NCBI GenBank assembly: GCA_014378195.1
Contig: JACMOC010000061.1
Location: 1-64,000, forward strand
Length of the DNA stretch: 64,000 bases
Direction: 5' to 3'
Origin: Oligoflexus sp.
GTDB lineage: Bacteria > Bdellovibrionota_B > Oligoflexia > Oligoflexales > Oligoflexaceae
Shown here: positions 2,025 through 7,557 of the stretch, piece after piece
Position numbering within the stretch: the stretch's first letter is position 1
How the letters are laid out: each line of letters opens with the position of its first letter
Notes under the pieces: generated by a model
Databases searched by the model: none
Told to the model about the DNA's origin: nothing
The model's input: only the letters and a program-made list of their open reading frames with translations
Translations under genes and position numbers: made by a program

Positions 2025-2471
2025 TCAGTCAGCTCGGCTGTGCTTGGTGCAGGTCGAGATAAAGTCATCGGCCGAACTTGCATCGGCCGTATTAGCCGGA
2101 AGCAATATGACGAGTTCGTCTTTGACCGTTACGCCAATGACTGCATGAAGGGTCGGGTAGTATTGGAAGGTTACGGTTTCGAAATCGTCAAAGTCCAAAT
2201 TAACTTTGTAACCTTTGAAGGTATAAAAGTATGTCGTGCGATAAACGCTCGGACTCACGCGCGAAACAAGCATACCGTTGTGTTCGGCGGATTCAAAATA
2301 GTTGAAAACAGCTTTGCTGTTGATGGTCGGATCATTCAAAGCATCAGTGATGACATAGTCAACGGCATGGACGGGTAGAAAAACGGTGTTTGAGCCGCTT
2401 GCATGAGCCGAATTTAAACCAATGAAACTCGAGCAAACGAGCAAGGTTAGAGTTAATAACAGTATTTTCAT
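2025..2471 (-). CDS. Small exported protein, cassette copy 1
   Basis: 148 aa with N-terminal signal peptide (MKILLLTLTLLVCSSFIGLNSAHA); shares FxYYPTLxAxIG and VxLLP with copy 2; start overlaps upstream stop (ATGA). Confidence 0.8.
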   Translation of the reverse strand: MKILLLTLTLLVCSSFIGLNSAHASGSNTVFLPVHAVDYVITDALNDPTINSKAVFNYFESAEHNGMLVSRVSPSVYRTTYFYTFKGYKVNLDFDDFETVTFQYYPTLHAVIGVTVKDELVILLPANTADASSADDFISTCTKHSRAD

Positions 2472-3271
2472 TCGTCCAACTCCTTATTGGGACACTCACT
2501 CTTCGTACGTCTATCAGTCCGCAAATCGTTTCGATCGTAAAGCGAATACATCAAATCACAAAAGAAGTGAGTGTCGCCTTCTGCATCCTGATTGTCTTTG
2601 AGCGCATTTAAGTCTTTCATAAAGTTTAATACAAGCTCTTTCAACTTGGGTACCAGCTCCGGTTTCACCGCTCCTGTCGCATGCATCAGACTTGCGCCGT
2701 CCGTTCCGACTAGCTGCTTTACGAAGTGATGAGTTGATTGCCGAACCTGCACAAGTGCATCGTCGACGTTGCCTATTACCCAATTGTCATGCGTATATTT
2801 AATTGTGCCATCAGGAAGCTCGACCAGGATCGTGTCATCAAGCATCTCGTCCAAGGCTTCAATACCGCTTTGGCCACAGAGAGCGGCAATGGCCCTACGC
2901 GTAGTGCCTTTTTTGGTCGCGGCTATGTTGAAAATGCGATTGTGCGGCTCGAGACGAATAAAACGACTTAAGGACTCCTGATTAGGATCAGGACGGACGT
3001 TTGTCGCATAAACTTCGTCCATCAAATTGCCAATAGTCGGGAAATGATTTTTGAGAAATTCTAAACGCTGCTGAGTTGTCATCACCACTTCAGCGATTGA
3101 AAGCGCCGTATAGGGATGGGGGACACTCTCGTTCTGAGCGATTCTTCGTATAGTCGAGTAAGCGACAGACGTGCGCCGAGCCAGACCGGATAAGCTCCGA
3201 CCTCGGTTGCCCTGTGTCCATGCGTTGATTGCACTGACCAGATCAGATAGCAGTGCTTGCTCGTTGACCAT
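2468..3271 (-). CDS. HTH regulator, cassette copy 1 (possibly TIGR02147/DUF4423-like)
   Basis: N-terminal HTH (SLSGLARRTSVAYSTIRRIAQNESVPHPYTALSIAEVV), about 70% identical by eye to 3998..4774; family name is inference. Confidence 0.75.
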   Translation of the reverse strand: MVNEQALLSDLVSAINAWTQGNRGRSLSGLARRTSVAYSTIRRIAQNESVPHPYTALSIAEVVMTTQQRLEFLKNHFPTIGNLMDEVYATNVRPDPNQESLSRFIRLEPHNRIFNIAATKKGTTRRAIAALCGQSGIEALDEMLDDTILVELPDGTIKYTHDNWVIGNVDDALVQVRQSTHHFVKQLVGTDGASLMHATGAVKPELVPKLKELVLNFMKDLNALKDNQDAEGDTHFFCDLMYSLYDRNDLRTDRRTKSECPNKELDE

Positions 3272-3360
3272 GCGCCTCTCAAATTTGGGAAAATACCACG
3301 CCGAGAAAAGATCAGATCTTCTCCTGAGTACCTACCATTGCTATCAAAACGTTAATCAAA

Positions 3361-3403
3361 TTTGTTTAAAACAAACATAATAATGTGCTGGCAAATGAAT
3401 TGT
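3361..3403 (-). promoter_or_regulatory. Conserved upstream element with TTTGTTT-A-AAACAAA palindrome, cassette 1
   Basis: Perfect 7-1-7 inverted repeat at 3361-3375; 3368-3403 aligns with 4860-4898 upstream of cassette 2. Confidence 0.6.
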
Positions 3404-3519
3404 TCGATTTTGAGGCAAAGTGGTTAACTGATTGTGCGCGTAGTTCGGGGAAAAGTTAAGCGCAAATCCGCTTCTTTTGAATTTTAAAAATGAGGGAGAA
3501 TCGAATCGGTGGGATTTTC

Positions 3520-3543
3520 TGCTGCCCTAAACCAAGGGCAGCA
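3520..3543. terminator. Hairpin TGCTGCCCT-aaacca-AGGGCAGCA downstream of cassette 2
   Basis: 9-bp perfect stem, 6-nt loop; no strong U-run. Confidence 0.5.
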
Positions 3544-3569
3544 AAATGATCGGCATCTCTAAAAGAGAA

Positions 3570-4001
3570 TCAGTTTGCAACCGGCAAAGTATCATCGCCG
3601 TCTTCAGTTGAGCGACTATGCGCAACTTGTGGAAGCAAAACGACCGTATCGTTATTGCTGTCAAAACCAATAAACGCTTTGAGTGTAGGATAGTAGTGGA
3701 ATATTATTTTGCCATATTGACCGAAGCCTAAAGCGACGTCGTAATTATTAGCAGCGCAGTAAGCAACCCAGCGATAAATGCTCAGATCGATACGTGCGAC
3801 CATCAGCGTGTTAGCTGAGGACTCTAGGACTTCAAACAGACTCGAATTATTAAACATCTTGTCGCGAATGGCTGATGTTAAAAAATACTCTTCGCTACGC
3901 ACTTGCAAGAACACGACAACGGCACCATTTGCGTGAGCTTTTTCCGTATTGACGGTCATAACACCGCAAAGGACGAGAAGAGCTAAAATAAGTTTTTTCA
4001 A
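3570..4001 (-). CDS. Small exported protein, cassette copy 2 (probable TTG start)
   Basis: LKKLILALLVLCGVMTVNTEKAHA signal peptide; TTG at 4001-3999 preceded by AGGAG with 8-nt spacing and overlapping the regulator stop as TTGA; ORF-track start 4028 lies inside the regulator. Confidence 0.75.
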   Translation of the reverse strand: MKKLILALLVLCGVMTVNTEKAHANGAVVVFLQVRSEEYFLTSAIRDKMFNNSSLFEVLESSANTLMVARIDLSIYRWVAYCAANNYDVALGFGQYGKIIFHYYPTLKAFIGFDSNNDTVVLLPQVAHSRSTEDGDDTLPVAN

Positions 4002-4774
4002 GTGTCTTGCTCCTGAGTAGGTAACCACTCCGTACGATCGTAGAGTGAATACATGAGATCACAGTAAAAATGAACGTCGCCGACAGCATTGTCGTCCATT
4101 TTCAGCGCATTTAAGTCCTTAATGAATTTTAATACAAGCTGTTTTACCTGGGGGATAAGCTCTTTTTTAATCGACCCGGTCGAGTGCATTAGGCTTGCGC
4201 CGTCAGTACCAACAAGCTCTTTATCAAAATGATGAGTTGAATGACGTACTTGGCAAAGAGCATCCTCTAAATTGGACGTCGTCCACGAGTCTTGAGAGTA
4301 TTTAATAGTGCCATCTGGCATCTCTATTAAAAACGCTTCGTCGAGCATTTGATTCAAAGAGTCGAGTCCAATTTGACCGCATAGGTCCTGGATCGCGCGC
4401 CTGGTAACGCCTTTAGAGGTCGCTGCCATGTTGAAAATGCGGTTGTGTGGCTCGAGACGGAGAAACCTTTGGAAGGCCTCTTCGTTTCCTTCGCTCCCCA
4501 TTTTGGGCCCGTAACATTCTTCCATGAGATTACCGATAGTCGGGAAATGAGTTTTCAAAAACTCAAGGCGCTGCTGCGTCGTCATCACTACTTCGGAAAT
4601 CGACAGGGCTGTGTACGGGTGCGGGACGCTCTCGTTCTGGGCAATGCGCCGTATCGTTGAATAAGCGACACCAGTGCGTCGAGCGAGCCCAGACAGACTC
4701 CGGCTACGATTGCCGTCGATCCACGTATTTATCGCGTCGACTAGATCGGATAGCAGTGCTTGCTCGTTAACCAT
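3998..4774 (-). CDS. HTH regulator, cassette copy 2
   Basis: 258 aa, colinear with 2468..3271 product over most of its length. Confidence 0.75.
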   Translation of the reverse strand: MVNEQALLSDLVDAINTWIDGNRSRSLSGLARRTGVAYSTIRRIAQNESVPHPYTALSISEVVMTTQQRLEFLKTHFPTIGNLMEECYGPKMGSEGNEEAFQRFLRLEPHNRIFNMAATSKGVTRRAIQDLCGQIGLDSLNQMLDEAFLIEMPDGTIKYSQDSWTTSNLEDALCQVRHSTHHFDKELVGTDGASLMHSTGSIKKELIPQVKQLVLKFIKDLNALKMDDNAVGDVHFYCDLMYSLYDRTEWLPTQEQDT

Positions 4775-4859
4775 GTGTTACTAGTTCCCTACGAGGGTAA
4801 TCGTCCAGTGCTCAATCCTATCGAGCACTTCACCACAAAAAATGACAATCGATTTACAC

Positions 4860-4898
4860 AAAACAAACATATTATTTATGCGTTGGCAAACCAATTGT
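4860..4898 (-). promoter_or_regulatory. Conserved upstream element, cassette 2
   Basis: AAAACAAACATATTATTTATGCGTTGGCAAACCAATTGT on + strand, matching 3368-3403. Confidence 0.55.
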
Positions 4899-5324
4899 GC
4901 TTAATGCGAGCGAAGTTGATATCGCATTGTGCTCGCCTCGCTCGAAAATGTTAAGCGTTATTTCGATGTGGATTGACACAAAACGGTGAGTTTGGGAGAA
5001 ACACGGTAGGCAGTCATTAGCGCGAGATAGAAGTCAGCAGAACAGCAACAACGCTGACGTCATTATATGTCGTGGTGGTCGATATGAGTTCCTCTCGAGA
5101 ACAGCAAGAGAGAGAAACAAAGGGGTCTCCTAAGACGAGATCCTTATATCGACACATTAGAGTGTGGTCAAGCAAGGACTGCACCCATTTTCAGAGGGAC
5201 TGCCAATCTCCCTCCCCGTTGATTTGCCGTTCACAAGTAAGACGGCAACCTAGAGATGAAGAGTCTCAATCAATGGTAGCCACCCCCCAGACCTTTTAAC
5301 AAAGGTTCTACTTTTTCCCCTGAA

Positions 5325-5365: not shown

Positions 5366-6571
5366 CTATGAATAGATGTACTCAGCAATGAGCTTCATCT
5401 GATACTCCATAACCTCAAAGCGCGTATAAACACCGTGGCCAAAAACACCAATAATAAAATTGTTACGGTGTACGGTTGCCCTTTGGTAATCAATGAGAAG
5501 AGTGCGGCCAAAATCACCCAACCGCTCACGACGCACTATGGATCGTAACCAGAGTCTTGTATGCCAACCTTTGCCGAGTAATGTATCGAGCTCCCGGTTT
5601 AAAGTTCGTTCGCGCGGAGTAGGGGAAAGATTGTCCGATCCAATCATGCCCCATTGCTGCACAAAATCCCCACCCGATGTATTCCAAAAGGCCCAAGGTG
5701 ATTTTACTGCAGTGGTGTCGCCCTCGTGGTTGACGATGTGGAGCACTCTCATCCCGTCGACGAACGACCAGGAGTAACGCACAGGACCGCCCAGAGTGAC
5801 GAAATCGAAGCGTTGCTTGCGAAGGGCCTTCGCTTTATCTCTAAGCCCGTGAGGGGCGAGATTTTTGTGAGCGAGGAATTGCCAGAGCGCGTGACCGAGC
5901 CCGTGGTTTGTGCCGCTTCCTTGAATGAGATGCGTGAACAACGCAAACACCTGCCGAGCATGACTGTGGCCCATCAGAAGAATGCGATCGTCGGCCTTTT
6001 TCGGAAAATCGTGTCCTATCTGCTCGAGCAAACTCACAGCGCCTTCAAGTCGTGCCAGGTGATGGTTCGCCGAAGACCAATATTGCAAACTCACCGGGAT
6101 ATTCGCGTGGAGGGCTTCTTCCAAAAGCGCGGTATAGGCGGGAATGAAATTGCCATTATCCTGCGCGACGTGATCGATTAGGCCGCGCATTCGCTTCGAC
6201 ATGCCGCCTTCGATTTTTTTGCTCATTTTAGGAAAATAGAAACGCAGCGACGAAAATATATTCGCAGGGTCTGAGCCAACAAATGTTCCGTGAAGGAGTA
6301 TGATGCGTTTTACTTTGGAAGCTTTCAGGCTCGCTCCGGAGCGCTTCATGCTTTCCCGCCATTCGGCGGATTGACCGTTGATGATCTTTGAATGGGCATT
6401 GAAACTATTCAGTCCCTGGAATTTGAGATGAATCGGCTCAAGCGGAAGGGGAATCGCGGGCGACTCGAGGAGCTTCGGTAAAGGACGCCTGAGGTACCAA
6501 ATGCCAAAGCCGATACCGATCAGCAGGATCACTGAGACTGCGATCACGCCATGATACCATTCCACATGCAT
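5366..6571 (-). CDS. Membrane-anchored alpha/beta-hydrolase-like protein
   Basis: N-terminal TM helix; ILLHGTFVGSDP and GHSHARQVF (GHSxx-like) motifs. Confidence 0.6.
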   Translation of the reverse strand: MHVEWYHGVIAVSVILLIGIGFGIWYLRRPLPKLLESPAIPLPLEPIHLKFQGLNSFNAHSKIINGQSAEWRESMKRSGASLKASKVKRIILLHGTFVGSDPANIFSSLRFYFPKMSKKIEGGMSKRMRGLIDHVAQDNGNFIPAYTALLEEALHANIPVSLQYWSSANHHLARLEGAVSLLEQIGHDFPKKADDRILLMGHSHARQVFALFTHLIQGSGTNHGLGHALWQFLAHKNLAPHGLRDKAKALRKQRFDFVTLGGPVRYSWSFVDGMRVLHIVNHEGDTTAVKSPWAFWNTSGGDFVQQWGMIGSDNLSPTPRERTLNRELDTLLGKGWHTRLWLRSIVRRERLGDFGRTLLIDYQRATVHRNNFIIGVFGHGVYTRFEVMEYQMKLIAEYIYS

Positions 6572-6702: not shown

Positions 6703-7557
6703 GTGTTTATTAGCCGACGTCTCCTCGAATCTTACTATAAGGACATGAAACAGCTTGATAAAGACCTGGCACTCGCGGCGAAAAGTGAAAGTGAGGACAA
6801 TCGGCTGTTTGATTGGCTAATTGAGGAGGACGACGTTTGGCCTGTCCTAGTCCCTGTATTCGAGAGGCGTGTTCACACCCGTAAGGGCCTTGAAAAATGG
6901 CTTTTGGAAGCCGATCATGCGGCTTTCAAGCTGACGTCTGACCAAAAACGAATAGGTGCATTTTTTATCATACTTGAAATAAGGGAATACGCCGGTCACA
7001 CGCTTTGGAACACGCTCCGTGAACCGCCCCATTACGATGAGATCGTCAAACAGGTTCATGAGCGCGTGGCCAAGAGGTTCAAACGGCCATTTGATAAGCA
7101 AATGTCCGTACAAGATCGTGAGTTGAGTTTGAGTGTGATGCTGCTTGGAGAAAGTCTGGAAGGGCTTTCTCCGGAAAAGGTGTTTGAACTCCTCAAAGAA
7201 TCCGAGTTTTTGGGGGGAAGTGATTACAGCGAGATCAAAAAAACGCTTTTGGGCAAACTTGGGACGTCCGGTGTCGGAGGGATGAAAACCATGCTAGGCA
7301 AAACCGTTGCAAAACGATTGGCCGCAGGTCTCATTGAATCGGCGTGGGGAGCCTCAAGACTTGCTCAGGCCGGGCGAATTGGGGGGGTGTTGAGCCGGGT
7401 CCTGCCTTTTGCGCTGAGACGGGCTAGCCTCTACGTAAGCCTCGGATTTCTTTTAAAAGATGCCTATCAGCTCGGCGGAGAGGCGACTCGGATCACCAAT
7501 CCCGCCGTTATCATTATCGCTCTTTATCGCAGCTTCAGTGATGCGCCCTCGGCTTAA
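6703..7557 (+). CDS. Hypothetical protein with YaaW/UPF0174-like C-terminus
   Basis: 284 aa; C-terminal hydrophobic LLKDAYQLGGEATRITNPAVIIIALYR resembles YaaW-family ends; inference only. Confidence 0.5.
   Translation: MFISRRLLESYYKDMKQLDKDLALAAKSESEDNRLFDWLIEEDDVWPVLVPVFERRVHTRKGLEKWLLEADHAAFKLTSDQKRIGAFFIILEIREYAGHTLWNTLREPPHYDEIVKQVHERVAKRFKRPFDKQMSVQDRELSLSVMLLGESLEGLSPEKVFELLKESEFLGGSDYSEIKKTLLGKLGTSGVGGMKTMLGKTVAKRLAAGLIESAWGASRLAQAGRIGGVLSRVLPFALRRASLYVSLGFLLKDAYQLGGEATRITNPAVIIIALYRSFSDAPSA

Follow-up and report, generated by a model that had tools for sequence, protein, structure and literature searches.

Two head-to-tail copies of a gene pair, each consisting of a regulator followed by a small exported protein, lie on the minus strand at positions 2025-4774 of the window (the whole 64,000-nucleotide stretch of Oligoflexus sp. 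contig JACMOC010000061.1 analysed here), and pairs of this kind form a large and apparently undescribed family. A profile built from 47 relatives of the regulator found the family in 27 of the 58 genomes of the phylum, with up to 17 copies per genome (G005) and four in the window's own genome, but no member among 325 genomes sampled from outside the phylum; these genome-wide statistics come from pattern and profile searches, and many of the genomes are incomplete metagenome assemblies. Neighbours were collected for 83 distinct members, 82 of which were testable by a rule requiring an ORF on the same strand that has its start between -45 and +60 nt relative to the stop of the regulator and encodes a signal peptide (called by a heuristic, not by SignalP). 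An exported ORF was found directly behind the regulator in 68/82 members versus 12/231 control ORFs of the same loci, and the commonest spacing, seen in 24 cases, was an overlap of 4 bases. Among the 68 positives, a few of those with the lowest scores may be false, and two real partners (L076 and L111) were missed solely through the signal-peptide rule; a minority of regulators have no visible partner, some of these being fragments. Many of the 82 members are orthologues from sister species and hence not independent of each other, but paralogues that are only 20-30% identical are also among them. The preliminary description of this DNA had proposed a paired regulator/exported-protein system, and this holds family-wide: a neighbourhood search did uncover more pairs in related genomes, and homologues of the regulator, rather than normally lacking a downstream exported ORF, mostly have one.

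In the window, the gene order on the minus strand is regulator A (3998-4774), partner A (3570-4001), regulator B (2468-3271), partner B (2025-2471) and then lgt (1010-1891). Regulator A is a protein of 258 aa with an N-terminal helix-turn-helix (HTH), linker helices, a winged-helix-like segment and a DUF4423-like C-terminal domain, and regulator B (267 aa) is its paralogue. Both partners are small Sec-exported proteins with a textbook N-terminal signal peptide: partner A has 143 aa counted from a TTG codon and a mature start reading ...AHANGAVVVFLQV, and partner B has 148 aa and a mature start reading ...AHASGSNTVFLPV. Regulator stop and partner start overlap by 4 bases in both copies, TTGA in A and ATGA in B, the start of partner A being best taken at the TTG at 4001, with which the overlap matches that of copy B. 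These four ORFs confirm the tandem arrangement as initially described, and the similarities given at the time stand as well: the regulators, put at about 70% identity, reach 72% in a BLAST alignment of 250 aa and 70% globally, and the partners, said to share only a few blocks, do have these in common (FHYYPTLKAFIG / FQYYPTLHAVIG and VVLLP / VILLP) within an overall identity of 33-35%. Searches of Pfam, NCBIfam and PADLOC with all four cassette proteins gave no family match. Near the cassettes, two further ORFs of 401 and 284 aa (5366-6571 and 6703-7557) have no Pfam match.

To this picture can be added a private conserved block upstream of each copy. Control block A (4843-4957, minus strand) is a 115-bp element lying 68 bp upstream of regulator A. 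Its identity among A orthologues is 90-91%, compared with 42-63% for the spacer that separates it from the start codon (42-55% in pairs including the window), and in the very species whose blocks are this similar, 52-60% of third codon positions are different. Upstream of cassette B, control block B (3350-3462, minus strand) is a diverged form of block A with 66% identity, parts of which are alignable throughout the ten close cassettes. Within block A, an imperfect 13-base inverted repeat read from the sequence, GAGCACAATGCGA...TCGCATTAAGCAC (4897-4934, minus strand), is a candidate operator, a regulatory role for block and repeat being suggested by conservation. Two other elements, likewise read from the sequence and on the minus strand, may mark the ends of the transcription units, namely a perfect 8-bp hairpin 3' of partner A (3521-3542, GCTGCCCT-TGGTTT-AGGGCAGC) for unit A and a perfect 9-bp inverted repeat 3' of partner B (1971-2006, AAGGAGCCG...CGGCTCCTT) for unit B. 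A consensus scan of the locus for promoters and terminators gave nothing above shuffles; it did not list the hairpin of partner A, and the loop of the partner B repeat exceeds the length that it allows. Rfam gave no match over the locus, including a further non-coding stretch upstream of block A (4975-5030, GACTGCCTACCG...CTCCCAAACTC...TGTGTCAA) that is conserved in most close cassettes.

The same tandem pair is found in Oligoflexus sp. LF-bin-353 (L042, apparently identical to contig G001:C54), and in a third genome (G003) both cassettes are present, but on separate contigs. In a phylogeny of the regulators, the A copies from three species cluster together (95/93) and so do the B copies (86/90), which implies that the tandem duplication predates these three species and that the two copies have been kept apart. 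As judged from the sequences, the duplication is thus old, and each copy, A as well as B, is represented by orthologues in three species of the genus. The suggestion that the system expands by duplication therefore stands in part: the pair has multiplied within genomes (four copies here and as many as 17 in G005), but an ongoing local expansion is not what the window records, and a recent tandem expansion was rejected because the duplication is older than at least three species. Cassettes lie beside lgt in several species and are old and vertically inherited, and no relatives of the regulator were found in plasmids and viral contigs. The arrangement is far beyond chance: both copies have orthologues in related species, with low dN/dS (0.05-0.09 for the regulators and 0.14-0.23 for the partners where silent sites are unsaturated), indicating that both genes are translated and under purifying selection. 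The partner does diverge faster than the regulator, as had been claimed, and this in every comparison, whether of dN/dS or of identity, the latter being always well below that of the regulator (e.g. 48% vs 78% between window A and its G001 orthologue).

The AlphaFold2 model of the regulator (pLDDT 90) shows an N-terminal Xre-type HTH like that of SinR/HigA, helices, a winged-helix-like segment and a C-terminal domain. A fold search of the PDB with this model (Foldseek) matched the HTH domain only, leaving the C-terminal domain without a match, and a PDB sequence search with the family profile returned only weak helical or HTH matches. The regulator thus has the fold of its DNA-binding domain in common with Xre-type local autoregulators such as SinR and HigA, but differs from them by a long extra C-terminal half and by its exported partner. 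Its resemblance to TIGR02147/DUF4423, proposed at the outset, proved real as remote homology with the same domain order, the alignment of the two families by hhalign reaching a probability of 91, and then of 96.5 (E 9e-10 over 211 columns) with a larger alignment, the two comparisons covering 211-218 columns or nearly full length. It does not amount to membership. At the NCBIfam cut-off of 50 bits, the window regulators do not match TIGR02147, nor do any of 47 relatives at E 1e-3, and at the gathering cut-off of 30 bits the window proteins do not match DUF4423 (PF14394), with which 6/47 relatives show weak matches (best E 5e-4). The window's own genome encodes six TIGR02147 members above cut-off, all outside the window, and the true TIGR02147 proteins of this genome score 115-118 bits against DUF4423. 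Full-length remote homology combined with failure at both curated cut-offs argues for a sister family of TIGR02147/DUF4423 rather than for members of it. The two families are alike in size, domain order and the presence of many paralogues per genome, but the window family was found only in its phylum whereas TIGR02147 (Fsuc_second) also occurs in 11 sampled genomes outside.

Because of this full-length homology, the genes downstream of genuine TIGR02147 regulators were examined, and there too an exported protein with a short conserved mature N-terminus is encoded directly downstream, in about 30 of 35 cases as scored by rule. While partners in the window family are small signal-peptidase-I proteins with glycine-rich motifs, those of TIGR02147 are nearly always lipoproteins, many of them of 150-400 aa or more, with the mature end C-G-[TIV]-E-[TVAI]-G-N-[PG]; in L001-L003 and L131-L157, TIGR02147 lies directly upstream of lipoproteins starting CGTE[TV]GN[PG]. 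A degenerate DNA pattern for CGTExGN had 15 matches in 58 genomes, of which 14 are lipoproteins that in every case follow a TIGR02147 regulator immediately; the one other match does not fall in a gene-like frame. With the GTExGNP pattern in 383 genomes, exported carriers were found only behind TIGR02147 regulators, with the exception of L213 (G189:C31), a GGTEAGNPP lipoprotein near a contig end where the upstream gene is cut off and a regulator is therefore uncheckable. Outside the phylum, the motif is sometimes further from the lipid cysteine and repeated two to four times. In one such genome (G246), three TIGR02147 partners (L186, L185 and L193) carry two to four copies of a ten-residue motif, L186 having four SGGTDTGNPF-type units head to tail.

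The partners of the window family (60-222 aa) are hardly alike except for the glycine-rich start of the mature protein. Glycine makes up 21% of residues there, as against 6.8% in the other exported proteins that these loci encode, and the forms that recur include SGSNTV, NGETGV, GQHSGLGGG and AGGxSGxGGG. Pattern searches found that all exported carriers of NGETG[VI]L (4/4) and of GQH[ST]GxG (5/5) lie directly behind a family regulator, the remaining matches not being exported starts. The partner body is conserved and folded in the close set, with a pLDDT above 90 in the core of partner B, and a PDB fold search with the partner returned nothing. Covariation between regulator and motif among distant members was null (Mantel 0.013), so that a lock-and-key recognition is not visible in the sequences and no specificity of recognition is claimed.

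The coupling of the two genes, a control block private to each copy and the exclusive association of the motif with the regulator are most readily accounted for by an autoregulated cassette whose exported protein is of consequence for its cognate regulator. In the scenario that we tentatively favour, each copy would be a self-contained two-gene operon in which translational coupling ensures joint production of regulator and Sec-exported envelope protein. The regulator would bind the conserved block just upstream and set the output of its own operon, tuning it to the level of its cognate partner or to the state of its export, and the glycine-rich stretch at the mature start of the partner would be the most likely recognition element. 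Many diverged copies might thereby provide a set of separately switched envelope proteins. The pairing, the overlap, the signal peptide, the conserved control block, purifying selection and the exclusive co-occurrence of motif and regulator are observed; self-binding, feedback and the role of the motif are the putative components of this scenario, as is the step by which a cytoplasmic regulator would read an exported partner.

Ranking close behind partner feedback, and a serious possibility in its own right, is an ordinary local switch responding to another signal (a small molecule, growth phase, prey or surface contact), in which the partner motif would be an envelope-localization tag read by separate machinery. 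The partners are periplasmic or surface proteins by their signal peptide or lipobox, with the motif in a position typical of sorting signals, and regulation by a life-cycle signal is plausible since Bd3700, a DUF4423 protein of Bdellovibrio, is among the proteins upregulated during growth within prey (PMC12546842). Nevertheless, a localization tag would be expected also without a regulator, yet in the phylum 23/23 exported proteins that pattern searches identified as carrying a motif lie directly behind one, and in some TIGR02147 partners the variable distance between motif and cysteine and the two to four motif repeats are unlike position-dependent sorting signals. An effector or signal role of the partner, as first suggested, would be conjectural, and the structure of the regulator does not support a peptide receptor of the RRNPP type. 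RRNPP systems (Rgg/SHP, PlcR/PapR, NprR/NprX) also combine an HTH regulator and an exported partner encoded next to it, the receptor having C-terminal TPR repeats and the partner being a short exported pro-peptide that is processed to a re-imported signal of 5-10 aa. A pheromone of this type, a fragment of which would re-enter the cytoplasm to bind the regulator, would fit the one-to-one pairing of adjacent genes and the many diverged paralogues, and the tandem repeats of some TIGR02147 partners (L186) recall multi-copy precursors. It is nonetheless improbable, because the model has no TPR-like match (ComR, ElrR and Rgg give a Foldseek probability of 0.12-0.25 and a TM of ~0.2), because proteins of 60-222 aa with a conserved folded body in the close set are not short pro-peptides, and because many TIGR02147 partners are lipoproteins of 150-400 aa or more. 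Another difference from RRNPP pairs is the host, Gram-negative as inferred from taxonomy and the lipoproteins.

Still less credible is a toxin-antitoxin or defence pair whose toxin is exported, a reading in line with a small two-gene operon with overlapping ends and an HTH that resembles HigA. PADLOC, Pfam and NCBIfam give no toxin match, the regulator lies upstream and is 2-3 times larger than usual antitoxins, and the cassettes have been inherited vertically for long, sit beside lgt in several species and gave no hit in viral contigs or plasmids. That the small ORFs might be spurious frames beside a regulator gene could be argued from the fact that they match no database family, but this is refuted by the selection data: dN/dS of the partners is well below 1, contradicting the possibility named in the preliminary description that they might be untranslated, their start, signal peptide and frame are conserved in ten orthologues and they recur throughout the family.

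To our knowledge, TIGR02147/DUF4423 has curated models but no assigned function, and some bacterial genomes carry tens of copies of it. In the open-licence literature, TIGR02147 was found in no paper, DUF4423 in one table entry and the motif strings in no paper, and broader searches returned nothing relevant. A rule tying these regulators to exported proteins with a short motif thus offers a concrete handle on the regulated targets, and it extends to a sister family that the databases do not recognize. Whether a regulator reads its own exported partner becomes directly testable, and many unannotated small envelope proteins could be found by looking behind such regulators. A far-reaching and rather doubtful generalization would be a hitherto undescribed regulatory system in several phyla, in which DUF4423-superfamily regulators each monitor one cognate exported protein via a short linear motif with which the mature form begins (CGTExGN for lipoproteins and glycine-rich variants for the window family, in tandem in some), giving rise to many independent protein-sensing circuits of the envelope.

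In three TIGR02147 loci (L004, L158 and L159), the protein encoded behind the regulator has a signal peptide and a motif of the GNGGD or GSGGD type, not CGTExGN, possibly marking a third class of partner. Tandem TIGR02147/lipoprotein pairs are present outside the phylum as well, in the genomes with the highest TIGR02147 scores (L179 in G146 and L182 in G286), the lipoproteins being of ~500-1000 aa and having in common a stretch like KGPFVKGSxVTVQ.
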